A stretch of 64,000 nt of DNA, from positions 32,962,064 through 33,026,063 of the forward strand of contig OX459095.1 in assembly GCA_949775045.1 (NCBI GenBank), given 5' to 3'. A program made the translations under genes and the position numbers. Below are positions 11,148 to 63,641 of this stretch, piece by piece (within the stretch, counting starts at the first letter, position 1; the number at the start of each line of letters is the position of its first letter). The stretch comes from Metridium senile (Eukaryota; Cnidaria; Anthozoa; Actiniaria; Metridiidae). The notes under the pieces were generated by a model. It had not been told where the DNA came from. It ran no database searches and saw nothing but the letters and a program-made list of their open reading frames with translations.

Positions 11148-14100
11148 ATGCCGGTAAGTTGATATAGCTAAATTCGTTTAATGCAAGTAGTGTTATACTA
11201 TTTAATCAGTTTTTTAACTTGTTTATACGTATTTTAGGCTTATCATTCGAGTTTGGAGGGGAAATTATCGATCGGCAATATGGCGCTGTTGCCTGTGAAT
11301 ACGAACTTCAAAGGCCCTGCTCCACCAGGCGGTAAGTTAGTAAGACAGTCTAAGTCATATATAAATGAACATAGAACAGGAATAAAAGTTATTTTTACTT
11401 GTGCTTGACTTAGCAGTTGGTAGGGTTTACTATTTTAACAATGTTGGACTGCTTGAGTGAAGTGAGATACTGGTTATCCCATCGATGAAATCGATTTTCA
11501 AAAATTCAGTCGATAAATCGATGAACAATCAATACAAAAACTTTATTGATATAGATTGGTATTAGCCAATCGACGAACAGTCGATAATCACAAATATTCC
11601 GATGACAATATATATTGATGACAGATTTATCTGTTATCAATTGCAATGGTCACCGATTGTCAATTGATTAATTGATATAAATTGTCTTCAATTGTTATTG
11701 ATTATCAAATCATTGATTGGATACCGGGATAGTTTAGTGGATAATATTTTTGCTCATATTTGGGGTATAGTTTATATATGGGGATTACTGCAGTTTTCGA
11801 CTTGATGTGAACTTAGCCATTAAAACAGTTTGTTGTGAAATACATTTTTTGGGCTGCTCCTCCATGTATTGGACACAGTCAATGTCATTCAATAGAAACA
11901 CAAAAGACTCCAAGTTAAACAAAGAACGAAGCTAACAATAAATGCAATAGGTTTCCAGTACACATTAAAGGGGGAGACATTTTCTGGCTGCCGTCAATCA
12001 TAAACATAAAAGGTGCAGAGTCGTAAGCAGCAGCCAAATACATATATTTCACAACTAGCTATTCTGATGTCTGAGTTATAACCTGTTATGACCCTATTGG
12101 ATAATGTTTTATTTTTAATATGCTATTTCAATAAAGAATATATAAATAAATATAAATAAACTTTGATCGGGCAGGGTATCCCAGGTACCATTATGGGCAC
12201 CCAATTTATTGAGGCTACAGTGCATATACCTCAGTATAAGCTAATACTTTGAATTAAGCTTACATGTACATGAAAATATTAAGGTCTGACGATGATGTAT
12301 TATTATTCATTTCCCAGGTTCCAATGGCCCAGATATTATAGATGAATCATTGTACTATTTTAAAGCTAATGTTTTCTTTAAAACATATGAAATCAAGGTA
12401 TTATAGTCTATAAAATTGTTTGCCTGTAATATGATATCCACTAAACACTATTACAGTAAACAAGTTCCCATTTAAATCTGTACTTTCCCATTTAAATCTG
12501 TACTTATGCAAATTGTGTTGATGTGTGCTAAACACACAGATCAACCAATCAGAGTATATTATTTCTAAAGTGAACTTCTCTGATTGGTTGATCTGTGTAT
12601 TTAGTATCAACAAAATTTGCATAAGTACAGATTTAAATGAGAAAGTACAGATTTAAATGGGAACCTGTAATTGATGATAATTCATGGGCATAGTACTGTA
12701 CCTTGTTATAACTTTACTTTTTACATCTTATTAGTTGTGCATATATGTACTAATGCTGGCTTTGTTTTGCAGAGTGAAGCTGATAGGGTCCTTATCTACC
12801 TTACTCTTTATATTACTGAATGTCTGAAGAAACTCCAAAGGGTAATGACCGTAATTCTAATTAATAATTACATATTAATACAATATAATTAATATATAAT
12901 TACAGTATTTATGCATAAGCTTACAAATATGCATTTAAAATAGTGTCAAAGACAAGCCACTGTATATTTCATACAGATCTGAACCGATTACTGTATAGTC
13001 CGTATGAAACTCCAACGTTAGTTCTTTCATATTTTACTAAAATTGTCAAGATAAAAGTAAATCTGTCCAAGAAAATTCAAGTTGAAACTTCAAATCAGGA
13101 TGAATCTGATGAAAACAACACAATTATGAATTTAAACACGGCTTACAAACGTTTACTGGATCAGGATGAATCTGTTTGTTACTTACTACACTCATCGCAG
13201 ACATGATTTCTTTTGTCAAATGCTTAAATAACTTATTCATGAATTTTATAAGATCATCTAATATACTTACTTGGAGGCAGGAGAAAGTCCAATAATATAC
13301 ATGTACAAAAGAATGCTCATTGCTCAATAACATTAAAAAAAAGACCACTATAAGGTGCTAGATTCTTGTCCAAGTAGGTGGGTAAATAAGTAATTGTCAC
13401 CCCAAATAGTAAAGATCTGATCTTGGGTATGACATTCACTGTCAAACAACTGAAAATCTTGCACCTTTGTCTTGACTGATACATTTTGATTTTTCACAAA
13501 TTGCTTAATCAAATATTGCCAATTTAAACCAATACAAAATGATACAAAAAGAACCTATAGATAGTTGTAGTAAATGCCATGATAAACCCCTGTATTCTAC
13601 TTCAGAACTTATATGTTCATACATCCAAAAGCTCTGCAGTGTTTGATTATAGTTGTGAAGGCAGAAATAACTTTCTATATCAAATATATTTATCAAAACG
13701 ATGCGATGATGTGTTGATCTGTAGTAAACTCTTTGCTAGTGAAGCAAAGCTTGGCCCGAGAGCCTCGTTTTCATGGTACTTGTTAGAATAAAATCCAAGT
13801 CCACAGGGTATTTAGTCTCCAATCAGGTTTTATTGTAAAGGTTCAAACCCCATATAATGACTTTCACTCCGCACTCTCTCACGCTCGCTCACAACTCACG
13901 CTTTCTTAATATACCATAATAATTATGTTTTAACATGTGGGCACAGGAAGCCCAAAAACGTCAATGTCAACCAGTAAAAATGTTTCAACAGTACTCTCAT
14001 GGCGATACTGCTGGTTTGTTTGACTCACGTACTCATCTGCGATAAGAGCTATTTTAATAGCTGTTGATCAATTTAAAATATGTTAAACCAGGAACAGTTT

Positions 14101-20011: not shown

Positions 20012-22051
20012 AAGAAGACTATTTTCACTGAACAGATTTTAGCAGTAAGGCTTTAAACTGATCTACATCTACTTTCTCAATAAGGTTTACATTCTTCCTT
20101 TTTCCAAGCATATCTCTCCAGTCGACAACCATCATTCCTTTTGTCACCTTGCCCTGTAGCTCTACAGTAGCATGCAAAGCCTTCTGGGAAGTCACTATAT
20201 GTGGACAAACACATACAGCAATAACGTAAGGATCACATGGCAACCATGGTCCTCCTGATTCATACTTTTTAATACCTCCTGAAATTGACTTCACGAATTG
20301 TGACTTTGAACTAGGAATTCCAATGTACTGGTGGAAAAAACCCCAGTCAATTGGATGCTCTAAACAAAACTCCCACGAAACAATAGAAATAGGGCATTCC
20401 AATTCTTTGAGAACAACATAGGCAGCTTCAGGATCAGCACCAAAGTTAAACTCTGCTGAGATAAATACGTGGTTCCCTATACCATGCTTATTGCCTCCCA
20501 TGATATCAATGCCTTTGAGGTTTTTGGAGAAGCTTGCATCCATACGCGAGGCTAATGCTATGTTAGTTAGGGGTGCCAATGCGGTGATGGTTATCTCTCC
20601 AGGGTTTTGCTTTACTATATCTATTAGAGCTCTGACTGCATGAGTGGACTGCAGCAGATCTAAGTCAGGTTCTTTTGCATCGACATCATCACCAAGACCA
20701 TCTTCTCCATGGAATGTTGTAGGTTCAAATTCATTGCCTGTTAATGTGAGAAAAAACCACCATGTTAACATTTATAATCCACCGAACTTGAGATAATTGT
20801 AGTTCCATATAGAATCCAACTTTTCCATCATCAGAAATACATTGATTATGTATGTGGTCATGCATGCAGTCAATCTTCATAGGACGTATACTGCTCAATA
20901 TATTTGCATGTAAACGCATAATCAATGTATTTCTATTATCAAATGATGACCGAAATATCACTTTACTAGTAAAATGTTTAAAAAATGGCTTCTCGTCATC
21001 ATGCACATTCTTAATTCGAATATATGCCCAAACAAATATTTTCAATAAAAATGAAAGGTAATAGATCATGTGATAATTTAAGATCAGGTGATGCAGCGCA
21101 GCCTTTGGAGTTGTCAATTGACCATTATCGATTGGACACGTTTTGTGATTCTAATTTTATCGATTGACCAATTCCAATCGATATGAAGTACTCCTAAGCA
21201 GATATTATATCAATTAACCCTTTGACTCCTACGGCGCCCGAAACCGCCCGTAAAAAAACGACCTTGCTTTGAAAAATTCTAACTTTGAAAAAAAAGCCAA
21301 ATTTGCCCAGCCGTTTGAATGTTAGTAAGCACTAGGAAGTTGTTCAAATTTTCATAGTATATCAGTCACAAGAAACAAGCAATTTTAGCACAAAAATTCC
21401 ATATGAATTACTTTAGGAAAGTCAAAAATGACCGTTTTCCCCCCTATTTTTCAATAGTGGAAATCACACTTTTTTGACCTTGGATTTTTTATCGCAAAAA
21501 TCGTTTTTAGACGAAAAAGCCGTTTTCACAACAAAATTCAGTCCTTGTGCTATAGCTTTGGCAAGTTTTTTCCCTTTATTTCACTTCACGAACCCAGCTG
21601 CGGTCGTTTGATTACGGCCATTTTGATACGCACGTGTTTTCAAGTATTTACGACTGCAAAGCATTGTGGGTAACGATCACAGCGCTCGTCATAGAGTTCC
21701 CCCTTAGTCCCTTTATAAATTTATTAGAAGTCTAGGGTCACCTCGGTTTTCTGCCAAAATTTCGCGCTTGTTGTGTTCCTCTATCATCACAACTTCAATA
21801 AATATTATAAAATAATTGGGATAGTACGCGCGCGTTGATTGGTCAAACAACCGTGTTTCATGAGAGCATGAAACACACTTATGCCATTTTTTAGCGCGCG
21901 CGCTCATTCAACGGTCAGTTTATCCGTTGTTTTGATCTTTCGCGCGCGCTTATTGGTCAGTTTCGAGAAAAAGCAACGTAGGGAGAAATGACATCGTCAA
22001 ACGAATAAAAGGGCATTTTTTTCGTCTTTTCGCGCGATTGTTATTTTATAA

Positions 22052-25656: not shown

Positions 25657-27291
25657 TCACTGAACAGATTTTAGCAGTAAGGCTTTAAACTGATTTAAAT
25701 CTACTTTCTCAATAAGGTTTACATTCTTCCTTTTTCCAAGCATATCCCTCCAGTCGACAACCATCATTCCTTTTGTCACCTTGCCCTCTAGCTCTATCGT
25801 AGCATGCAAAGCCTTCTGGGAAGTCACTATATGTGGACAAACACATACAGCAATAACGTAAGGATCACATGTCAACCATGGCCCTCCTGATTCATACTTT
25901 TTAATACCTCCTGAAATTGACTTCACGAATTGTGACTTTGAACTAGGAATTCCAGTGTACTGGTGGAAAAAATCCCAGTCAATTGGATGCTCTAAACAAA
26001 ACTCCCACGAAACAATAGAAATAGGGCATTCAAACTCTTTGAGAACAACATAGGCAGCTTCAGGATCAGCACCAAAGTTAAACTCTGCTGAGATAAAGTG
26101 GTTCCCTATACCATGCTTATTGCCTCCCATGATATCAATGCCTTTGAGGTTTTTGGAGAAGCTTGCATCCATACGCGAGGCTAATGCTATGTTAGTTAGG
26201 GGTGCCAATGCAGTGATGGTTATTTCTCCTGGGTTTTGCTTTACTATATCTATTAGAGCTGTGACTGCATGAGTGGACTGCAGCAGATCTAAGTCAGGCT
26301 GTTTTGCATCAACATCATCACCAAGGCCATCTTCTCCATGGTATACTGGAAGTTCAAATTCATGGCCTGTTAATGTGAGAAAAAAAACACCATGTTAACA
26401 TTGGAAGCTCACGTAATCTTATAACTATATCAATATGAGAGTAAGTTATTGTACCAAACTTGAGATAATTGTAGTTCCATATAGAATCCAACTTTGATAG
26501 ATCATGTGATCATTTCAGATTCCTTTTTTACTCCGATGAAGGGCTAAAGCTCGAAACGTCAGTAAAGTTAAGTCAACATTTTGTTACCTATCGTTTATAT
26601 CAAACAACGACACGGCCTATACTAGTTTACTCACTAGTTTCCATTTCCATTTCAGATCATGTGATGCAACCCGGCCTTGGGAGTTGATTCTTTAGGTATA
26701 AGGTATAAAACCGATGACCAATAATAATGCTTTAAGTGATTATTATCGATTGAAATTGAGAGCTTGATTTGCATGTTATGATATTGCCAATTGATGATTA
26801 TCGATTGGACACGTTTTGTGATTATAATTTTATCGATTGACCAATTCCAATCGATATGAAGTACTCCTAACCAGATATTATAAATCAATTAAAGTAATAT
26901 TTTATCATAGTAGAGGAACTGGAACCCGGGCTACTTCAAAGGACCAGCCTATGTACGTACCGTACCATCACGTGACCTCGACCCTCTTATTAATATAAAC
27001 TATGATATTATCGATTGGATACACACAACGTGTTTGTCCAAGACTCAGTCAATTCTTATTCCTACCTAGAAGGCCACGATCAGCTCCTTTATACACTGGG
27101 ATGTCCGTTCTACCACACACTTCTAGAGTCTTTAGAACATTTTTAGCTACTTGATCTACACCGATGTTGCCAGCTACGCATGTAATAGCTATCACATCGA
27201 CGTCTAGAGAAAGGGCCAGTATTATTGCCTGTGCATCGTCTATCCCAGCATCGCAATCAATGATGATTTTCTGTCGACTCTCCGAAGACAT
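25657..27291 (-). CDS. Inosine/uridine-preferring nucleoside hydrolase, two exons, intact copy B
   Basis: The enzyme hydrolyses the N-glycosidic bond of ribonucleosides to free base plus ribose (purine/pyrimidine salvage, presumably cytosolic). Exon 1 is 27066-27291 (ATG at 27291). Exon 2 is 25657-26366. The donor is ctag|gtagg and the acceptor acag|gc. Together they make 936 bases and 311 residues, usual for the family. Visible motifs are IIIDCDAGIDDAQAI near the N terminus (the DxDxxxDD calcium/ribose loop), ITCVAGNIGVDQVAKN, then across the splice ADRGLLG and HGEDGLGD. Later come ITITALAPLTNIA, IMGGNK, SAEFNFGADPEAA (substrate-binding Glu/Asn and Asp) and CDPYVIAV near the C terminus. The second exon has no ATG in its first part, so gene finders may truncate it. 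No signal peptide is seen. Substrate preference cannot be read from sequence. It is divergent from the STAND gene at 27578. Confidence 0.93.
26511..26657. mobile_element. 127-bp retroposon-like insertion with 10-bp target duplication, hammerhead-like core
   Basis: The insert is 26521-26647, bracketed by perfect direct repeats CATTTCAGAT (26511-26520 and 26648-26657). Block A has a single copy of the equivalent site ('aatttaagat'), so this is a true insertion after the duplication. Inside are CCGATGA, a short stem GGGC-TAAA-GCTC, GAAA and CGTC, followed by 'agtaaagttaagtcaac'. This order resembles the CUGANGA / stem II / GAAA / GUC core of hammerhead ribozymes found in Penelope-like elements. 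Position 4 deviates from consensus, so activity is doubtful. A longer relative is at 38090-38290. Confidence 0.75.
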
Positions 27292-27577: not shown

Positions 27578-30500
27578 ATGTATGGACTTCGCTGCTTCAT
27601 TCAACATCGCCTCAAGTTTGAAGCGACCGGTGAAAGGCTCCTCAAGCTTGCAAGAATAAAAAGACCACGACGATTTCTTACTACTCAGGTAGAACAGAAT
27701 GCCACGAAGACTGCAGAAGAAAGTCCAAAGTCATGGCGGGAAAATCCTAACTTAAAATATTGGGTAATTGGAGTTGGTGCAATCACCGGCGTAATCTACC
27801 GATATGTCTATAAAGAGAAGGATAAGAAAAAGATTATTGTGAAGAACTTTCCTTCTTTACCTAGCCACAAGCTACAAAGTCGAGATACAGACTTGAATGA
27901 ACTCTATAACCTCTATAAGAATTCTAGAAGTAGTTCAGTGTCGACTGTGTTTATCGAGGGGTACCATGGCAGTGGGAAGACTCTGATGGCTGCTGCCCTT
28001 GCAGAAAAGTTAACCAAGGAAGAAGAAGGGAAGTATCATTTTCTTCCACGAAATTTGTTTGCTGGTACAATCAATGCTGCTAACCTCAACACTTTACTGT
28101 TTGATATCAAGAAATTTGCTGTTGCCGTAGGCTGTCAATCAAAAGACTGGTTGCTAAGGATTGACGAAGGGGTTAAGTTTGGTAACCTTAGTGATGGTGA
28201 ACAACTTCGTGTCATTGCAAATGCTCTCCAGGAAAAGCTTTCAGATAATCCTAACTGGATTCTTATTTTTGATAACTTGAACGATAGTGAACTTCTGCAT
28301 GAGGTATTTGGTGATGACTTGAGTTCATGGGGAAAAGGAACTTTAATTGTTACAACTGGGACGAACCATAATGCGGAGCATTCTCCTTCATATTGTTTAG
28401 ATAAGGGGTAAGTATATGCCATGTAAATTAAAACATATATAATACTAGTACATTAGCATACCTTCCTTTATGCAAATAGTTTGCGAATTATTTCATTATG
28501 ACACAATGTGTTTAGAGTGGGGGATAGAATCGCCGAAAACAATGGCAATTTCAATTAAATCTTCCTTTTCCTTGAAAATTGAGCTTCATATTATCTAGTT
28601 TTTATGTATGTTATGTGTCTATGGTATGTTTATACTTTCATATTTATGGCATTTTGTTGTCATTTCTTTCCTCTCCGTCTTGTAAATGCAATTTTATTTT
28701 GTATTCTTGTATTGTTGTTATGAATCTTTCCCCCACTGGCGTCCATGAACCTTAGAATGTTTTGACGTGACGTCATAGTGAAATAGGACAATTTTTACGG
28801 TTTCTTTTTTTGGTAATAGCATTAATGTATTGGAATATCTGTGTGTACTTGCTAAATCTTTATCTACACCACTATAGTACTAGCCTGCATAGCTGGCTCT
28901 TTGGGAAAAGGAGGGGGAGGGGAGGGGAGGGGGAGAGGAAAGAAAGGAGAGCCTGCAACAAACCCCCAGTAGTTTGTGTTACCGCCCCCATCTAAGATCA
29001 TATTACTTCAGCAAATCAGCGCTTACCACGGGAAGCCAGTCAAATGCAACAACAAACAACGTCGTCGTACAGTACGTTTGGTTTTATCATGAATAATCAA
29101 AACATTTTATTATCCATGGTTTTATTTTCATTATACAGTAATTACAACATTGTCAAAATGCGGTCGTGTCGCGAAAGAAGTAAATGTTAATGATTTTTCC
29201 CGCATTACTTCGATCGTCTTCTTCGAACGGCATCTAAAACAAATTTATCTTTGGGGTTTTATAAATACCTTTTGGAATAATAATAAGCTTTTATCTAATA
29301 TGAGCTACAATTTAAGAGTGAATATTGATAAACAATCAATCGTGCAAAGTATAATACAAGTTTTATTAGTACGTTTTGTATAATTTTGGTTCAGTATAGA
29401 AAACAAAAATGGTTTGCGGACAAATTTGAATTTCCAAAATCACATCACTGTAATATACAAATGGTTATAGCTTTATTAAACACACCTTTAACTGGACCGG
29501 ACCGTTGTTGCAGGCCCTCCTTTCCCTCTCTCCCCCACCCCTCCCCTTCCCCTTCCTCTCCCTAATCCCCTCCCGGGCCGCTACGCAGGCTACTATAGTA
29601 CCACAATGCTCTGCCTACTTTCTTTGGTGACAAAAGCAGTGACATATGTTTTATGTTGGGAATTATAAAATACTTTAGACACTATGCACGCTCTGTTTGG
29701 CTGGCTATCATGTTTATATCAGAGGACAGAGACAAGCTCAAAAAAGTCCAATACATGTTTTATAAAAGCAATATAAAGCATCTGCTTGTGTTTATATACT
29801 GTTATATATAAACACACTGGGAGCTGTAGAGTACTTGAGAAGTCAAAGAAACAATAGGTTACGCTTCTCCTTTTTTGCAACTTCTCTCTTGCTCTACAGC
29901 TCCCAGTGTGTTTATATAACAGTATATAGACACAAGCAGATGTTTTATATTGCTTTTATAAAATATGTTTTGGACTTTTTTGAGCTTGTCTCTGTCCTCT
30001 GATATAAACATGATAACCAGCCAAACGGAGCGTGCATAGTGTCTAAAATATTTTTAATCCCCAGACACAGGCACCAATTTGAATAATAATTAAATAAACA
30101 TTTGAATAATAAAGAGGATTCTTCAAAGCATTTTTAATAGCCAGTGCTGTATTTTCAGATGTGATTCCTAATGTTTGAAAAGTACTAAAGATAATTTTAT
30201 TGTATACCATTTTCAATACTCTGCAAACTCAGACATTGCATTGGCTTGTAAAAATGGATTTACTTTTTCAACATGCAACCAAAGAGCTCAGAGAATATTG
30301 AGACTTATTTATTGCTTTTTGGTGTATTTTACAGTTTATAATAGAATCTTTGTTTTAAAGTACATAATAATTATATAAATATTATTAGATTTAAATCAAT
30401 TAAATAGTATGATAGCTTCTTTAAAATTAGAATATTGAGACTTTATTGCTTTTTGGTGCTGTTTTACAGTTTATAATAGAATCTTTGTTTTAAAGTATAT

Positions 30501-33500
30501 ATAAATATAGATTTAAATCAGTTGAATAATATGATAGCTTCTTTAATATTAGAGTCTGGGGGCAGTTTTCTAGTTAGAACATTTCTGTAATTTTAATTCC
30601 TTTTTCTTTCAGTATGGATAAACTTGAAGCAACCCTGCTGTTAAGAGAACTAACAGGACTGCCAGATGACAAACTAGATGATGGGGAACAGATTCTCAAC
30701 AAGTTAGACTATTCACCATTTGCTATTGCTTGTGCTGGGGCTTTCATCAAATCAAGACTAGAAAACGAAAACGATTACTCATTAAAGGATTTTTCTGATG
30801 AACTGAACACTGGAATGGGGAAATTACAGGAGAGCAACCAAGATAAAAATATGTCAAAATCTACCAAGTCTTCATATGTGATTGCATCACTTTTGGTTAA
30901 AGAAACATTGAATTCATCACCACATTTTCTCCATGCATTTGATTTGATTGGAAGCTGCTCTCCAGTGTGGCCCATTCCTGTGAGCTTGCTATCAGTGCAT
31001 CTAAGATCATCAGAGTACCATCTGCCACCAGTGCCAAGAAGTGCTCCAGTCCTACCTGACATTCCAGATCAAGGCGAAATCAAACCTGTTAAACCAGAGC
31101 AAGAAGTTGATGAGTCGTTTTTCTCCATCAAAAGGCTTGCTAATAATCTGGAATCGTTTACGACAGCAGTTAAGGCCAACTATGATGCTATCAAAGAAAT
31201 GTTTAATCCTCCACCCATGGATTTCACACCTCCGTCTGATGGTGTACTAGAGCTTATGCAGACTTGTCCTTTTATTTCTGCTGAAAAAATCAACCCTGGA
31301 GGTAGGTCAGATTTGTACTGTACATGTATATACATCAAATAGATAGCAATTTCCTTGAAACTGATAGGGCAAGGGACTGTCATATTTTCTCTGTTCATGG
31401 TTTATATACATTATAATCATAGCTATTACAAATGGGTTGATTCTGATTGGTCATATTTTCTCAGTACACAGCATATAAACAATATAATTACACCTATTAC
31501 TGACAATTTCCTTGAATCTGATTGGTCAATAGACTGTCCTATTTTCTCTGTACACAGCATACATGTATAAACAATATAATTACAGCTATTACTTACAATT
31601 TCCTTGAATTTGATTGGTCAAGATTTTTCTTTTTTCTCTGTACATGGTGTATAAACATTACAATCATAGCTATTACAATTCCTTGAATCTGATTGGTCAA
31701 GGGACTGCCCTATTTTCTCTGTACATGGTCTATAAATATAATAATCAAATAGATAGCAATTTCCATGAATCTGATTGGTCAAGAGATGCCCTATTTTCTC
31801 TGTAAACAGCATATAAACATTATAATCATGCTATTACAAATTGCTTGAGTCTGATTGGTCAAGAGACTGTTCTATTTTCTTTATACATGGTCTATAAATA
31901 TAATATTCATAGCTATTACAATTCCTTTGAATCTGATTGGTCAAGAGACTCATGTTTTCTCTGTAAATGGTGTATTAACATCACAATCATAGCTATTACA
32001 AATTGCTTGAATCTGATTGGTCAAGAGACTGACATATTTTCTCTGTACATGGTGTATAAACATGTCTTTCGCCGAAAAGTGATCAAAAGCAAAACATTTC
32101 AACGTATGTTTTACGACCAAAAAATCAATGATAAAGCGAATTTTCTATCATTTTTTTCAAGCAGTGTTTGATTATATTAGGTATTAAAATTATATTCATG
32201 TGCATTTGGCGATGGAGAGTTTGGCTAGATTTTTTGCAAACGGCTCATAAATATAAACACATCTTATGCAAAATTTAACAAAAAAACTTTCAAACATTTC
32301 AAGAAAAAACAAACCTCACATATAATTTAAGGTTAAATGAACTAATTTTTGTTGGCTATAAGTGGTGGAAGCTTAAAGAATATGTACACGAAGTGATAAA
32401 ACATATCTCCTCCAGCAACTGTAATTTTCTGCAGTAACTCAAACACACTCTTTTTTTGAAAATTTGTGTGTGTGTGTGTCAATCGAAATTGATTTTTCAT
32501 ATGAAAACGAATTTCCACAATATTTTAATTATTGTCAATTTATAGGCCAATGAATAAGCACTAATTTAAAGGCAAATAGAAAATGGAGAGTTCGTCTAGA
32601 TTTTGAACTACCTCACACAAAAAAGATTTACAATGACATGTCGTTCTCTTCACAAATACATCAACAATTTCAAGTTTTCTCATTTAGTGAAAAGCATATA
32701 TTAACCCTAAATACAATGCATTAACTCACCTTTCTCCTCCCTTCATAATGCCACATATTCAGCTCCAGTGCAGATCGGCGGTGCAATTTCATCATCAAGA
32801 AAAATAAGCCAAAAACCAATGACAATGTAGAAAGCCTGTGAAAGTTTAGTGCTTGAAACTGGTACACGATCAACAAGTAATTGAAAAAATCTTTCTTAAT
32901 GGTTCTGATACTGGATATTTTTGAAGTACTAGTAGGTTAATCTAGTCACAGTTCCTTCGAAGACCAGCGTTGTCAATGGTTCAATGTCGAAAGACGGCAA
33001 TTTCATTGATTAAAAAACAACTTATTCAAAGAAAATAGCCATCGTTTTACTTGTAAAGAAATAACAAATATCAAAGATCCTCATTCAAAAACATTATCAA
33101 AATTTCCATAAAATTTTTTTTTCCCAACGAAAATGCAATTTTAATTTCGATGAAAACATGTTATGGGCTTCCTGTGATTTTGTCACGTGGTCTGATGACG
33201 TCAGGTCGTGGTCGAGTTCTGTATATTGCTGGTTCAAGACTACATAGTACACCGAAAACAAGTTATAAATCTCGCTTAAATCTCGCTTTTTTTTAAAAAA
33301 ATACCACATTGTTAGGCATATCAATTTCAAGAGATGCTCAGATAAAAGACCCAGATTAATCTTTTAATTTTTTACCTCGTCTGAATCGCTTAAACTGGAG
33401 AACAAAAAACAAAAACTTTTGACAAAATGCACTACATGTAACAGATTCAATAATATTCTTTATTTGTTAAAGTCAGCAACTGAAAGGCCGATGTAGACCT

Positions 33501-36500
33501 GCATAAATACACTTTTCAAGAGAAACTGATGAATGATAAATGTAAGCTAAAATATTTTATCGATACATTATATGATTTCAATAACACAGTAATCGGTAGA
33601 TGGCAGGCATGCAACAAGTCGTATATTTTCAGTATTTTGCTTATTTCGAGGCTAACTATTAATGTTTCCCATGTTCCAAAGCTTTGTTTTAATCGTCTTA
33701 CGGACTTTACCTTGATTCAAAATACAGACAATACGCGATGTAGCCTCCGTGAAGGCTCTTTATTATGTAGCATTTGAAACTAGAAAGTGAGTGTTTCATC
33801 GGCATGATCGGGTACGCGAGAAAACATCGGGAAGCACGACGCCGCAGGAGCATTGTTTAGCGTATTTATTTGTTCATGTGCTTATTCGTGTTTTTAATAT
33901 TCGTTATATATAGCAAGAGTTGATGTGTGTGTTCAGTAATTGTCAGTAACTAGTCATATTATCATCAGTCATAATTCGTTCGAGAAGCAGATTTATCCAT
34001 CGACCGTACGCGTGTGATAGTCTATGAAGAAAGAAGAAATATCAACCCAAGTGTAATAAACAACTTCTATAAACAACCTGAGATTGTTTTTATTCACGAG
34101 GTTTTCGTAGTTTTCATAACCCAGGCTTAGTTCAAACTTAATACAAACTAACTCAAACTCATAACTCGGTGATTAGTCGATCTCGTTTACACGTCACAGC
34201 GTCCACATACGCACCAAGATGAAACTTCTTCCGTTGATCTGCTGTTATTCTCTTTATCTTCTGATTCATCCAATTCTGACTCACTTGGTGGATTTGTCGT
34301 TTCATTTTCTGTAATGTCAGGCTCAAATTTAAATGGTAAAACCATTCATTCTGTGTCTAATTTGTTGTTTTGATAGCTGGGATAAGAACGCAACGAGCTC
34401 GACGACCACGACCTGACGTCATCAGACCACGTGACAAAACCACAGGAAGCCCAAAACGTGTTTTCATCGAAATTAAAATCGCATTTTTGGTGGGAAAAAA
34501 ATATTTTATGGAAATTTTGATCATGTTTTTGAAATTAGCATCACTTTTTACATAAAATAAGTTCAAGTCGAAAAGTATCTGAGGGTCCCTTTAACATTTT
34601 TTGTTCGCATTTCTATGGCCAGCCTTGAACACCTCGTCAAATCTTTCGAATGTAAGACATTCGCGCCTTTTTCTTTATTTTGAGCACCAAATACACGCAT
34701 GCGCAGACCAAATTCCTACCTGCTAGCTACATGTATTACAATTTCCTTGAATCTGATTGGTCAATAGACTGTCTTATTTTCTCTGTACAAGGTGTATAAA
34801 CATTACAATCATAGCTATTACAATTTCCTTGGATCTGATTGGTCAATAGACTGTCCTATATTCTCTGTACATGGTGTATAAACATTACAATCACAGCTAT
34901 TACAATGTCCTTGAATCTGATTGGTCAATAGACTGTCCTATATTCTCTGTACATGGTGTATAAACATTACAATCACAGCTATTACAATTTCCTTGAATCT
35001 GATTGGTCAATAGACTGTCCTATATTCTCTGTATATGGTGTATAAACATTACAATCACAGCTATTACAATTTCCTTGAATCTGATTGGTCAATAGACTGT
35101 CCTATATTCTCTGTATATGGTGTATAAACATTACAATCACAGCTATTACAATTTTCTTGAATCTGATTGGTCAATAGACTGTCCTATATTCTCTGTACAA
35201 GGTGTATAAACATTACAATTACAGCTATTACAATTTCCTTGAATTTGATTGGTCAATAGACTGTCCTATATTCTCTGTACATGGTGTATAAACATTACAA
35301 TCACAGCTATTACAATTTCCTTGAATCTGATTGGTCAATAGACTGTCCTATATTCTCTGTACATGGTGAATAAACATTACAATCATAGCTATTACAATTT
35401 CCTTCAATCTGATTGGTCAAGAGACTGTCATATTTTCTCTGTACACCTGTAAAACAAGTAGTACTAATTAGTACTAAATAGTGCTAATTAACCAATAGAA
35501 AACAATAGAATTAGCATAAAATATTTAGTACTATTTATGTTTCACGCTTTTAATGTTTGTACTCTGACATTACTATCATAGCTATTACAAATTGCTTGAA
35601 TCTGATTGATCAAGAGACTGTCCTATATTGTCTGTTGTTAATATACTTCAAAAATCCCTTATATTAATACAGACTAAATTGGATTCCTGTTCCCATTAAT
35701 GTACATCCCTTTTCTAGAAAGGTTGTGCTCAGGGATAGGTCATTTAAAGACAGAAAGTGTAAAACTAAAATACTTGTTTTAAAATTTGTTTGAATGGCCT
35801 TAGTTGAAGTTGAAGTTAACTGTAACATTCACCTTTTGTGAAGTTGTTGGTTTTATTTTTTTAGAACACATTTGTATTAATCATTAGTAATAGCTTAAAA
35901 AAGTGCAAAATGCATGAATACATACATGTGAGAGTCAACTTGTCTGGATGGTTAAGTACAGCTATAAATTATAAACTCTTCTTTGAAGAACAAAATGTGG
36001 AAAAGAGATATATTAAAAGAAAAAGGAATATTTATAATCAATATTAGTATAAATACACAAGTGGTTATAGAAAACCGCGCACTGTGATTGGTCAAGAAAT
36101 TCATACTATTTTTCAATAATTGCCTACAGCGTTTCACAAGCTTTTAGAAAACAAAATGAACAGTTTTTCTTCACAAAAGGCTGGTTATTTTTAGTTTTTG
36201 AAATAATCACTTTTGTATTTATACTAAAACAATTATCAACCCCTCAGTGAATATCGGTGAGTAATAACCTTAATTCCATCTCGGTTATTATTCACTGTGA
36301 ACAAAAGACCAACAGTTCCTGTTCGTCATGCAAGTAATGTTTAACAATGAGGACTGGACGGGATTTCAAGCTCGCGCAATTAGTTCCAGTCCGAGGCGCA
36401 GGCGCAGCCGAGGACTGGAACTAATTGCAAGGACTTGAAATCCCATCCAGGCCGAATTGGAGGACTTTGAACTCAAAACTCAAAACGTTTCAAAACTTTC

Positions 36501-37773
36501 TCAGTCTCAAAAATCATTTTATGAGTTTTTTCGACGTTTTCTCATACAATCTTTTAAAATATACGTATACTTTCTATTTTTAGGAGTTCAATCAATAAAA
36601 GTCAACTCTATAGTCCATGAAGTAATGTCCCAGCTCTTTATTACCAACACTGCTCATCTCCTTGAAGAACAGCATCTGATACAAGCAGAAGACAAACACA
36701 ACAACAGTTCATGGTTTAGAAGGCTTTGGGCGTTTGATCCTCAAATATCTCTTCACGAATTTCGAAACAGTCTTAAAGAGAGTGTTGCTGAAAGCACAGC
36801 AACTCAAGGCGGCCCACAGGTAGGGGATACCCTTACTGTTCCCACAATCCACTACGATATTGATGTAAGTGCTCTCTTGAAGAATGAGTCGAGTGTTGAT
36901 GATTCAAGCTACAGATTTATTCACCCTATGGTTGCTAGCGATCATTACCAGCGACATATTGGTTTAGTTCTCAAGACTATTAACAGCGTTTCATCGGTAT
37001 GCAGCCAGGACGTACAAACACGAACTCTTGCCAGGCTCATCATGCCACATTTACATCACATCTTGACCACTAACACATCCAGAAGCCTGGGTCCAAAGAG
37101 TCGTGCCCATGCTCTTCTAGCTGTAGCCTCTATCAACTCTGCCCTGGGTAACCTGGATGCTAGCATACCATCCTTAGAGCAAGCACTTGTGATAGAAGAA
37201 GAGCAGTTCGGGGAGTCGAGCCTTGAGGTCGCCGCGACGTTGACAAAGATAGCAGAGGTCTACAGCTCGCTTGATAACGCATCCAAGGCACGGCTGCTTT
37301 TGGAGATGGCTTTTAGCATCTACGAACAACAGAGAAAGAAATCAGGAGAATACAAGAAAGCTTTAGAGTTCGCTCGAACCATGGAGGCCTTAGGTGCAGT
37401 GTATGGTGCTCTGGGTTTCAAACAACAAAGTAAGGAGTACATTGAGAGGGCTTTGTCGTACATGCAAACCGCTGCCCCCACAACACCCGACGAGATTGAA
37501 GGACGACGATTCACCTGTGAAGTGGCCAGCACACTTGCTGATCTTGGGCATGCGTACTTGTCCATTGGTGACGCATTTTCAGGGCGTAAGATGCTTGAGT
37601 TGGCTGTCACTGGGCTGAAGAACATGTACGGTGAAGAGCATCCAGAGGTGGTTAGAGCCATGACTATATTAGGAACGGCCTATACTATGCAAGGTAATTG
37701 GCAAGAAGGAAAGAAGATGAGAAAAGAGGCAGGAAAACTTCAGGCAAAACTCGACACAGTAGTTGCTTTGTAA
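27578..37773 (+). CDS. STAND (NB-ARC-like) NTPase with mitochondrial-type N terminus and C-terminal TPRs, three exons
   Basis: The exons 27578-28407, 30613-31301 and 36584-37773 have consistent phases and sum to 2709 bases (902 residues). Residues 1-40 are basic and acid-poor, like a mitochondrial presequence. A hydrophobic segment at 61-76 (YWVIGVGAITGVIYRY) follows. Next comes an NB-ARC/STAND module: P-loop GYHGSGKT (128-135), Walker B WILIFD (227-232), sensor-like TLIVTT (255-260), and KLDYSPFAIACAGAFI near 307-322 (the GLPLA-type motif). A 'YRFIHPMV' winged-helix-like stretch lies in exon 3. From about 675 to the end are roughly five TPRs of kinesin-light-chain/NPHP3 type, e.g. LEQALVIEEEQFG, LGHAYLSIGDAFSGRKMLELAV and LGTAYTMQGNWQEGKKM. 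STAND proteins are nucleotide-dependent signalling switches, and TPRs bind partners. A membrane-anchored mitochondrial sensor is inferred; no named orthologue is recognised. Introns carry large repeats, including an 82-bp minisatellite. Confidence 0.85.
28870..29604. mobile_element. ~735-bp TIR element in STAND intron 1
   Basis: The left end 'ccactatagtactagcctgc' and right end 'gcaggctactatagtacca' are inverted. Next inward are a G-rich tract ('gggaggggaggggaggggga') on the left and the matching C-rich tract on the right, with 'gcctgcaacaaaccc' facing 'gttgcaggccc'. The G/C-rich arms could form strong hairpins or quadruplexes. No coding sequence. Confidence 0.8.
29666..30055. mobile_element. 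390-bp near-perfect palindrome in STAND intron 1
   Basis: The arms of about 165 bp begin 'tactttagacactatgcacg' and 'cgtgcatagtgtctaaaata'. They continue through 'tttatatcagaggacagaga', 'gcaatataaagcatctgct' and 'cacactgggagctgtagag', leaving a ~60-bp centre. A diverged, shortened relative is at 41614-41828. Confidence 0.9.
31360..32065. repeat. 82-bp minisatellite, array 1 (diverged)
   Basis: Eight or nine degenerate units each contain 'cttgaatctgattggtcaa', then 'gactgtcctattttctctgt' and 'aaacattataatcatagc'. Each unit holds an ATTGG (inverted CCAAT) box. Apparent plus-strand ORFs across it (31355-32171) are repeat-encoded. Confidence 0.9.
32066..34722. mobile_element. 2.66-kb insertion splitting the minisatellite, with an internal TIR pair
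   Basis: The two minisatellite arrays are separated by unrelated sequence. Within it, arms at 33083-33220 and 34391-34533 are inverted over about 140 bp ('tcacgtggtctgatgacgtc' on the left, 'gacgtcatcagaccacgtga' on the right; also 'cgatgaaaac' and 'gttttcatcg'). About 1.17 kb lies between the arms. No transposase is seen. The outer limits are set only by the minisatellite and may include more than one event. Confidence 0.7.
34729..35445. repeat. 82-bp minisatellite, array 2 (homogeneous)
   Basis: About nine units with an 82-bp period differ by only one or a few bases: 'ttgaatctgattggtcaata', 'gactgtcctatattctctgt', 'acatggtgtataaacattac', 'aatcacagctattacaattt'. A stray partial unit lies at about 35573-35635. 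The homogeneity points to recent expansion. Confidence 0.95.
36044..36226. mobile_element. Second copy of the 646-829 MITE-like repeat
   Basis: The ends 'agtataaatacacaagtggt' and 'atcacttttgtatttatact' are inverted. The interior 'actgtgattggtcaag' and 'aaggctggtta' match 646-829. Confidence 0.7.
36351..36451. repeat. GC-rich palindrome just before STAND exon 3
   Basis: The arms 'ggactggacgggatttcaag' and 'cttgaaatcccatccag' enclose 'gcaattagttccagtcc' and 'ggactggaactaattgc'. It ends about 130 bp before the exon 3 acceptor at 36583. Confidence 0.8.
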
Positions 37774-59212: not shown

Positions 59213-59280
59213 TTACCTCCGAGTCCTCTCCGAGTCCTTCCGAGTCCTCTCCGAGTCCTCCCCGAGTCCTCCCCGAGTCA
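59213..59280. repeat. ~11-bp minisatellite (CCGAGTCCTCT/C)
   Basis: Six tandem 'ccgagtcctct/cccc' units with small length changes. It creates a short Ser/Pro-rich open stretch that I do not regard as a gene. Confidence 0.85.
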
Positions 59281-59601: not shown

Positions 59602-60036
59602 TTAAACATTGTTCTCAGAGATTTGAGATTTGCTATTGAAAGACTCGAGACTTGTCCTATAAGAGAGACTTGTGCTAGACTCGAGTCTTGTGCGAAAAGA
59701 TTCGAGTCTTGTGCAAAAAGATTCGAGACTTGTGCGGAAAGACTTGATATTTGTGCGAAAAGACTTGTGCCAAAAGACTTTTGTGCGAAAAGAGCGGATA
59801 CCGACCTGGAAGAAGTCGAAGAATAATGGCGGGTTTTCTGCTTTATCGTACGATCGATCCTCCTTAGGTAAACAATCAACTTCTTTCGGGAAGAGAACCA
59901 TGAACAACGCTGTCATCATCCTACACTGAGCCATACATCTCTGTACGAAACCATTTTTCATGAAATTACAGTTTAAAACTCGAAAGTGACGGGCCGAAAT
60001 CTCCGTGTAAACTAAAAGTAAACACACCAAAATCAT
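59602..60036 (-). CDS. Weak candidate: small secreted-like protein with a 7-residue repeat
   Basis: The 144-residue frame opens with a hydrophobic stretch (MILVCLLLVYTEISA) resembling a signal peptide. It ends in a repeated SFRTxLE-type segment encoded by the 21-bp tandem repeat at about 59638-59790. No known family is recognised. A precursor peptide was considered, but no dibasic cleavage sites separate the repeats. Both strands stay open across the repeat, since 21 is a multiple of three, so the open frame may be accidental. Confidence 0.2.
   Translation of the reverse strand: MILVCLLLVYTEISARHFRVLNCNFMKNGFVQRCMAQCRMMTALFMVLFPKEVDCLPKEDRSYDKAENPPLFFDFFQVGIRSFRTKVFWHKSFRTNIKSFRTSLESFCTRLESFRTRLESSTSLSYRTSLESFNSKSQISENNV
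59638..59790. repeat. 21-bp tandem repeat
   Basis: About seven units of 'tgtgcgaaaagattcgagtct' type occur with substitutions and some shortened units ('tgtgcgaaaagact'). Confidence 0.85.
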
Positions 60037-60480: not shown

Positions 60481-63400
60481 TTATGTACGAGTTGACCCAG
60501 GATTACTCTGCAAGAGAGGTTGCCTTACTTCCTGTGGAGTTGTACTGCAGCATAGATTGATAATCACTGCAGGAATTGCAACAATAAAAGCAACAATAAC
60601 ACCAATATTGAGCGCAATAACAATATAGACTATTACTTTACTGGACTCTACGTCATATGACGCAAATCGAAGCATGATAAATGATTGATGTAGAACGGCA
60701 AGTGTTAGCACCTCCAGGAAGTTTTCAAACGACCTTTCACCATCTTGTACATAATACGGCTCAAACTTAAGTTGGTAAATCAAAGAGATTATTAATACAA
60801 TCGAAACAGTTAATGTCTGCATGGAGCTTGTGTGAGGGAAAACAGCCAAAAATACTGCAATAAAGAGTTTGCGTAAAAGTTTCAGTATTTCAAAGTACCA
60901 TTGAACGTTTTCCTTATATGGTTGATAGATAGCACCAAGCCAAGAATTACATAGATTTCTATTTTCCTCAGAAAAATTATCTCTATTCCACTTGTACCAA
61001 ATAAGCAAAGACTGCAAAAGTACAGGGACGCCAATGATATACAATATCACCCCAAGCCAACCTAATAGTTGCAGCATTAGGTATATCGGATCATCTTCAG
61101 AGCATTGTACCCATGGTGCTATGCGCAAATACGAGATCTCGTCATCATCTTCACATGGTGCTAGGATTGTAATAATTTGCTTGCTTACAGGAAAAAACGT
61201 AAGACATAGGCATGTGATGCTAACCTTTTTACATGAACTGCGAAAGTCTCTAAGAGGGTCACCAGCTTCTGTGGTTCTGCTAACTATGACTGCACGAAAG
61301 CCATAAATCATCCATATCAACAGCAAACAGGCAATTGGAAACATAAACACGAGAAGATAGTTGTATAATGGTGTGAACAAAATAGGATACTGACAAGAGA
61401 TTCCAGTGAAGTCCAGATTCATTATACTGCTCATATAATGCTGAACCGATACGACAAACTTAGGAATAGGACTATTGTTCGCTGAAATCATTGCATCAAG
61501 AACTTGAATGTAAAATACCAGTATTGAAATGATACCACGAGTGTTCTCTGATATTCCAGCGACATAAAAGAACAAAAGAACTACGCTAACTTCCAGAAAC
61601 CAACCAGTAATCACATCCACTAGTCTGAATGTCACTAAAAAGACCAGCTCAACAAAAGCGATGATGAATCGAGCTCTGATTGAATTGCTGCACAAATATG
61701 CAGCACTCAACATAGCCAACAAGCAAATAATGATCACTGGAGTGAACACATATGCACTGATCTGCGTTGATTGTGTTTGGCAGCCAATACATAGCGACCC
61801 AGACTTGTAGTACCCGTCAATGCACATTGAGCACAGGCGGTTTGTACTACCAGAGTGACAAATACGCGATTTGTTACACACAGTGGTGTGACTAGTAACA
61901 TTGAACCAGCATTGACAGTCTCCGTGTGGGTTACAAGCCCAGTCTTTTTCACTAGGAAAACTAGGGCACTCTACAAGGTGAGTCACGTTATTTACTGATG
62001 GTGAAGGCCAGTAACCACGTGCGAGCGTCATTACGATCTGCGGCACGTCATTATCGAGTAGGCTAGTCGACTTTGTTTCCCCGGAGCAATTCCCATTAGG
62101 CATGCACTTTTTGCACTGAGCCAAGCTCCCATAGTACCCCTTCCCACAAACACAAAATATGTAACCATAGTAACTTTCATCCATTAAAGCGCTCCCATTG
62201 GTGGACGTTAGTGTTGCAAAGGGACAACTGTACTCGACATTTTTCTGACGAAAGTTTGGAGTTACGCGCATGATGTTTTGGATATCTCCACTAGTTACAT
62301 TTATCTTGGAAACAGGAGCTCTCATTTTGGGATTACCTCTAATATCTATGAACATCAAAGATTGTAACAGTCTGAAATTACCAGGAATTTCACCTTCAAA
62401 TTCATTGTGTGATAAATCCAGCGTGTTTAAAAACATATAATCATTATGGACTTCCGGTATCGAACCCCCGATTTTATTTCGGTTTAGATTTAGTTCAATG
62501 AGACTTGTCAACGCCCAGATTGACGTATCCAGACTCCCATTGAAGACACAGTTACTGATATCTAGAATCATAAGCGAAGCAGTCGGCGTTAGTGCTGTTA
62601 TAAGTGTACTTACATTGACAGAAAGCTTCTGATTGTTTCCCAGTAGAAGTATCTCTAATCCAGGCGATCCTTTGAACGTTAATTCACTATGGATTCCTTG
62701 GAAATGATTATTGGAAAGATCAAGGATCCTTAAGTGAGGTAGATTTCCTAATTGCTTTGGAATTGTCTGTTGTAACTCATTAGAGTGCATAATGATGGTG
62801 GTCAAATTGGTCATTTTATCAATGCTTGAAGGTATAGGCCCACTGATGCCAGGGTTTAGGGGCAACATAAGTTCTATTAAATGAGGAAAACAATCACCAA
62901 AGTCGTCCGGTAATACACCATATATGCCTGCACTGGACAAGTGCATTTTCTTTAGTGACGTCATTCCCAAGAAAATGCTAATATTTCCATTAACAGACAA
63001 ATACTCCAGGTCCAAAAACCAAACTTTCTTAAGTTTTCCAATGCCTTGAGGTATTTCCCCATCGAGATCATTCTCACCAAGACTAAGAACTTTCAAATTT
63101 AACAGATTGGTAATGTTTTCAGGGATCGAGCCATTTAGTCGTTGATTAGATTTTTGACAACAGAGCTGGATCTTCTGTAAGGATTTGAAAGATGCAAATA
63201 TATTCTCTGGAAGTCGCCCAGAAAAATAACAAAATGACAAATCAACGCGCAACAGTTTTGTCATATTAGGAAATATAAAGTCCTTCAATTCACCAGACAA
63301 GTTGTTACTCGGGAGACAAAATGCTCTCAAATTTCGAAGTTTCCAGAGGCAACTTGGTATTTGTCCTGAAAGATTATTTTTGTTGAGTGTCAAACCAATC

Positions 63401-63641
63401 ACATAGCCATCACGGCATGTGACCCCTGCCCAAGAACAGTGATCGATAGTTAAATTGGATTGACGACCTGTAGATGACCATCCACTTTGCTTTGTCCAAT
63501 TATGACCTCGGGTCTCGATAAAAAGTTGTTGTAAGACAGCTCTTTCGACACTACGGTTAAATGTAGTGTCCAATGACTCGTCTGGAACTGTAATGCCATC
63601 GAAACACTTGAGATCAAGTGGAGCTTCAAATTCATTATTTA
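60481..63641 (-). CDS. Plant-type LRR / cysteine-rich / multi-pass membrane protein (large last exon)
   Basis: This exon starts after a minus-strand acceptor (ttcttccacag) at 63641 and encodes 1052 residues to TAA at 60481. The start and probable signal peptide are in an upstream exon outside the window. From the exon start there is an LRRNT_2-like cap (RAVLQQLFIETRGHNWTKQS, CSWAGVTC). About 13-14 LRRs follow at residues ~78-437, many with the plant-type LxGxIP consensus (NNLSGQIPSCL, NDLDGEIPQGIGKL, NEFEGEIPGNF). A Cys-rich stretch (~472-620) has EGF/GCC2-GCC3-like spacing (CVCGKGYYG, CSMCIDGYYKSGSLCIGC). Some nine to eleven hydrophobic segments (~629-1032) come next, e.g. FTPVIIICLLAMLSAAYLC and IVLIISLIYQL, then a short C tail. 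There is no kinase domain. Role inferred: cell-surface receptor or channel-like protein. I know no named metazoan family for it. Confidence 0.85.

Follow-up and report, generated by a model that had tools for sequence, protein, structure and literature searches.

The described proteins closest to the membrane half of the one considered here belong to the PF06011 family, which includes Aspergillus TrpR, S. pombe Trp1322 and Pkd2, and FLC. The fungal members pair an ML/TRP_N domain with nine membrane helices. Polycystin-1 joins N-terminal leucine-rich repeats (LRRs) to 11 membrane helices, with PLAT and GPS domains expected in or beside the membrane part. Plant LRR receptor kinases and receptor-like proteins (GSO1, FLS2, PEPR1) present LRRs of the plant-specific (PS) class on a single membrane helix. 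Fungal PF06011-type proteins are described as Ca2+-permeable in the available part of one paper (PMC8618638), and excerpts of another describe Pkd2 as opening under membrane tension, with nine helices in its membrane domain and a tail that steers its internalisation (PMC11277609).

How does an anthozoan exon with features of all of these compare with them? The exon lies in a 64,000-nucleotide stretch of the Metridium senile genome (contig OX459095.1, positions 32,962,064 to 33,026,063), hereafter the window. It probably shares with the PF06011 family a membrane fold, going by a match to a giant-virus protein named as a TRP ion channel, and, in its C-terminal half taken in isolation, the Pfam match; like Pkd2 it would have an extracellular N-terminal domain and a sorting-type tail. 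Unlike the fungal members, it carries an LRR and cysteine-rich ectodomain rather than ML/TRP_N (PF02221, for which the exon gave no match at E<=1), is modelled with 11 helices rather than nine, and is found in an animal. It resembles the plant receptors in its PS-class LRRs and in what looks like a related N-terminal cap, but it lacks a kinase, has 11 helices instead of one and possesses an additional 16-cysteine module. LRRs and 11 membrane helices are also shared with polycystin-1, from which it differs in having no PLAT, GPS, PKD or REJ domain at E<=1 in this exon; unseen 5' exons may carry domains. We tentatively propose, at not quite an even call, that the gene encodes an anthozoan (coral-type) cell-surface or endosomal receptor, in which a PS-LRR ectodomain and a disulphide-rich stalk are mounted on a membrane domain of the PF06011 kind with 11 helices, oriented N-out/C-in and opened by ligand.

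The terminal exon and its ectodomain

The open frame, on the minus strand, begins at 63641, ends with a stop at 60483-60481 and encodes 1052 amino acids. Because a pyrimidine-rich stretch and an acceptor-like AG (63643-63642) lie just upstream, we take the frame to be the final coding exon of a spliced gene (60481..63641, minus strand; 1052 codons plus stop, with two bases, TA, preceding the first whole codon). The exon itself encodes no signal peptide, and inspection by eye of the 358 bases left in the window beyond it showed no 5' exon that could supply one together with a start. A tblastn search found no second copy of the LRR gene within the window. Three protein searches yielded at least 76 relatives.

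The first-pass annotation of this DNA had proposed plant-type LRRs with an LRRNT_2-like cap, followed by a cysteine-rich module and about ten membrane segments in place of a kinase. The cap region (residues 1-79; 63403..63639, minus strand) contains Cys68 and Cys75 within CSWAGVTC. Its LRRNT_2 score of 14.8 bits lies below the Pfam cutoff of 20.7, which the relative P0017 exceeds (22.2 bits) and P0005 narrowly misses (18.3 bits). The plant-type repeats are borne out. Residues 80-451 (62287..63402, minus strand) hold about 15 of them, identified by Pfam (LRR_8, E 2.2e-18; LRR_14, E 5.4e-14; and LRR_1, all above cutoff), by a list of the units and by phmmer against PDB sequences. The available text of the paper that defines the PS class gives repeats of 23-25 residues with the variable part SGxIPxxLxxLxx (PMC4030839). 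The 15 window units are 23-28 residues long, 13 of them 23-25 and two of them 28, with the consensus G in 12 (shifted by an insert in two) and IP or LP in nine, counted by eye. In a tabulation of ten LRR units over 31 sequences, G is the most frequent residue in nine (19-30 of 20-31 sequences) and occurs in 8 of 31 in the tenth. Judged from sequence, the window LRRs conform to the published repeat definition. Plant receptors lead the phmmer matches, with GSO1 best at 296 bits, then FLS2, PEPR1 and others, and the first animal protein among the best 60 of 152 PDB matches is SHOC-2 at 65 bits, the plant or animal source being assumed from the protein names; such bit scores depend on the style of the repeats and not on descent alone.

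The cysteine-rich module, recognised by cysteine count and family alignment, is likewise present: 16 cysteines fall within residues 472-620 (61780..62226, minus strand), and each of the 16 is conserved in 95% or more of the 40-51 sequences available at its position. The Pfam family DUF7630 matches the window at 25.8 bits, just under its cutoff of 27. At Arg592 (61864-61866) the window lacks a cysteine found in 49 of 51 sequences, the other exception being P0048; drift of this copy or a sequence error may account for the change.

The membrane domain, the tail and a possible mechanism

The expectation of a multi-pass domain of about ten segments was confirmed. Hydropathy gives 10 membrane segments and the AlphaFold2 model 11 long helices in residues 628-1025 (60565..61758, minus strand). 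The membrane part was modelled with 36 sequences at pLDDT 85.1 and pTM 0.83; inclusion of the cysteine-rich module gave 70.4 and 0.67. Structure prediction had been suggested in the first-pass annotation, and Foldseek matched the model best to A0A5J6VHI1 (E 2.9e-5, probability 1.00, TM 0.50/0.51, rmsd 7.1 over 390 columns, 13% identity), a giant-virus protein whose structure is itself predicted and which is a 'Transient receptor potential ion channel' by database name only. A second match, A0A5J6VI06, scored E 2.8e-4, the next stood at E 0.23, and no PDB entry matched the fold at E<=0.001.

Pfam TRP (PF06011) matches residues 894-1042 (60514..60960, minus strand) with 34.4 bits against a cutoff of 28.5 when residues 472-1052 are scanned in isolation; in the longer protein the score is 23.2-23.7. 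None of the 22 relatives scanned reached the cutoff. Matches below it were found in P0002, P0010, P0015, P0016, P0053 and P0055 (19.7-28.0 bits), and most other relatives gave no match, including P0001, which is 67% identical. Among eight distinct C-terminal halves trimmed in the same manner, the window's alone matched at E<=0.1, and P0016, which scores 28.0 bits in the longer protein, lost its match on trimming. Precomputed annotation with a newer Pfam assigns PF06011 to P0002, P0015, P0016, P0053 and P0055. The sequence link is therefore fragile, and most of the weight falls on the fold match; from the model, the membrane half is probably PF06011-like, of the fungal Pkd2/FLC kind. All 59 sequences that cover the domain, the window's among them, have Q712 and D715 (helix 4) as well as C749 and C846; C829 is present in 58 of the 59, and N1011 (helix 11) in 57 of 57. 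An arrangement with the N-terminus outside and the C-terminus inside would place the loop cysteines 749, 829 and 846 on the outside. The loop charges fit it weakly (six K/R in the inside loops and tail versus two in the outside loops), and the sequon N888 runs counter to it, falling in a loop placed inside.

Could the protein instead be a drifted LRR-bearing GPCR or a polycystin-1-like protein that signals via G proteins or with a PKD2-type partner? The LRRs and 11 membrane helices do recall polycystin-1, and the accessible part of a paper on the Acropora digitifera annotation includes several LRR-GPCR entries (PMC3750612). We consider this very improbable, as no 7tm, GPS, PLAT or PKD_channel family matches at E<=1, no GPCR fold matches at E<=0.001, and the two GPCRs encoded in the window score as 7tm_1, not as TRP. 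An LRR-GPCR of the LGR type was rejected: no 7tm family, 7tm_1 included, matches at E<=1, and the model has 11 helices. Nesting within the metazoan LRR-GPCRs, which the first-pass annotation had named as a finding that would overturn its view, did not appear.

The absence of a kinase also holds, with no kinase family at E<=1 and a predicted cytoplasmic tail of 27 residues (60484..60564, minus strand) in which Pfam detects no enzymatic or adaptor family. The tail contains a dileucine-like EVRQPLL, one residue off the strict motif. Among 59 tails including the window's, [DE]xxxL[LI] occurs in 24, YG[TS]F in 27 and either in 51, compared with shuffled-tail means of 3.9 for the first motif (maximum 12) and 0.01 for the second (maximum 1); these counts include related sequences, and merging identical tails leaves 45 of 53 with either motif. 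The window and P0001 are among the eight sequences with neither.

The sorting-type tails, present in 51 of the 59 sequences, are what an endocytic or adhesion receptor might display, in which the LRRs capture ligand, the tail internalises it and the membrane domain serves as an anchor or as a module resembling a lipid/flavin transporter, rather than as a channel. The lack of any enzymatic or adaptor family in the tail would suit such a receptor, as would the proposal, in the available portion of one paper, that the fungal FLC relatives are FAD transporters (PMC8618638). Eleven helices with fully conserved intrahelical polar residues exceed the needs of an anchor, and we regard this alternative as somewhat unlikely.

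The protein is most likely a TRP-like channel that senses a ligand, or a channel-like receptor. In such a receptor the LRR arc would bind a peptide, a glycan or a partner protein, the cysteine-rich stalk would relay the change to the membrane domain, and that domain would open a path for cations, probably Ca2+. The short tail, through endocytic or lysosomal sorting signals, would set where the receptor works; against this stands the window's own tail, which fits neither strict motif, and since the cysteine at 592 is missing as well, this copy may be degenerate. A further proposal, speculative and on balance unlikely, is that fusion of an LRR sensor to a TRP-like channel lets recognition open the channel without a kinase or adaptor, and that the expanded coral family reads microbes, algal symbionts or self from the cell surface and endosomes. 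If true, corals would join a plant-style recognition module and a channel-type output in one chain, the family would be a concrete candidate for cnidarian sensing of microbes or symbionts, and a PF06011-like membrane domain would be present in an animal with a new ectodomain. No description of an LRR ectodomain combined with a TRP-like membrane domain was found in the open-licence papers searched.

Coral relatives, shared history and origin

The organism is known for four of the 76 relatives, all Scleractinia. Oculina patagonica ACROYT_G039345 (P0013) has the LRR, cysteine-rich and membrane parts; the Pocillopora meandrina protein (P0036) has the cysteine-rich and membrane parts and the last LRRs; Desmophyllum pertusum OS493_037734 (P0048) has part of the cysteine-rich module and the membrane part; and the Pocillopora verrucosa 'putative leucine-rich repeat-containing protein DDB_G0281931' (P0068) has the LRRs, the cysteine-rich module and a quarter of the membrane part. 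If our reading is correct, the last name, given automatically after a Dictyostelium LRR protein, masks a distinct animal family. All four come from coral assemblies, where their contigs range from 156 kb to 38 Mb; their membrane parts are 24-35% identical to the window where covered, and no characterisation of them was found in the open-licence papers searched. The Oculina protein differs from the window in belonging to a separate clade and in a tail that ends in the YGTF kind, not the dileucine.

Of the 76 relatives, 23 cover over 50% of the LRR, cysteine-rich and membrane parts alike, and all 41 relatives of at least 700 amino acids have LRRs together with the cysteine-rich or membrane part. 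P0057 has LRRs and the membrane part without the cysteine-rich module. In 21 of the 76, hardly any LRR sequence accompanies the membrane part; these may be fragments. Separate phylogenies of the two halves, a check proposed in the first-pass annotation, recovered the same three clades from 19 sequences covering both: the window with P0002 and P0004; P0005 with six others; and nine including the coral P0013. The LRR tree supports them with 100/100, 100/100 and 85/91, and the membrane tree, where the meeting of long branches calls for caution, with 100/100, 100/99 and 100/100. LRR and membrane pairwise distances correlate with r 0.958, a value reached in none of 2000 permutations. The shared clades and correlated distances indicate that the halves have been together since before the clades split. 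Between clades, mean LRR/membrane identity is 0.42/0.33, 0.31/0.32 and 0.34/0.35; within clades it is 0.59/0.54, 0.70/0.76 and 0.67/0.71. There is no clear excess of change in the LRRs, which leaves an arms-race receptor neither shown nor excluded. The longest contig is exactly 2,025,683 bases in each of the P0032, P0039 and P0067 clusters and exactly 1,353,165 bases in each of P0031 and P0051, which suggests several gene copies per contig and, probably, gene clusters.

Where did the two halves come from? On the PF06011 score and the Foldseek match, the membrane half more likely derives from an old eukaryotic family. Transfer from an alga or protist was among the histories raised at first; a recent transfer from an alga finds no support, since the family comprises three diverged clades and has members in coral assemblies. 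An older event, in which the ectodomain or the whole gene entered the anthozoan ancestor from an alga or protist and then expanded, would agree with LRRs far nearer to plant receptors than to the first animal PDB match listed (296 versus 65 bits) and with the restriction of the four relatives of known organism to stony corals. No donor was found, the LRR and membrane halves share one history, and searches of prokaryote genomes and IMG/VR confirmed no relative. The part available of a study of LRR receptor kinases beyond plants (Monosiga, Chlorella, Ectocarpus and oomycetes), in which the LRR class is unstated, holds that these gained their LRRs independently (PMC3268121), so plant-like LRRs need no transfer. 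We judge the older transfer quite improbable. Convergent drift of the LRRs is possible, because repeat similarity is a poor guide to descent.

Genomic setting

Six of the seven neighbouring open reading frames scanned have Pfam matches. Four are to a GIDE/RING ligase (MUL1-like), two rhodopsin-class GPCRs and a nucleoside hydrolase, and the two further frames are parts of a nephrocystin-like AAA/TPR gene. Judged by these families, the neighbours look animal, and together with the coral relatives this is why an animal host was assigned. The possibility that the contig is a contaminant, acknowledged in the first-pass annotation, did not materialise: contamination is unlikely given the animal-looking neighbours and the stony-coral relatives, one of them on a 38-Mb contig.

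Several other features were observed in the window. Two nucleoside hydrolase-like copies on the minus strand (20025-20771, the copy scanned with Pfam, and 25657-26208) are identical at 174 of 184 residues, the second lacking one Val, and look like a recent duplication. On the plus strand, the frames with AAA_16/NPHP3_N and TPR matches (27578-37773) are probably exons of one nephrocystin-3-like (NLR-like) gene. Two tandem arrays with an 81-82 bp unit, at 31450-32063 (7.4 copies) and 34734-35445 (8.7 copies), sit between the frames of this gene and contain the stretch CTGATTGGTCAA. Palindromic, MITE-like elements of about 200 bp lie in opposite orientation at 1242-1442 and 12460-12662, and the repeat at their ends, AAGTACAGATTTAAATGGGA, has eight matches with at most two mismatches versus none in shuffled sequence. 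Downstream of the LRR gene are the short tandem repeats CTCCGAGTCCT (59217-59279) and AAAGACTCGAGACTTGTGCGA (59639-59765).
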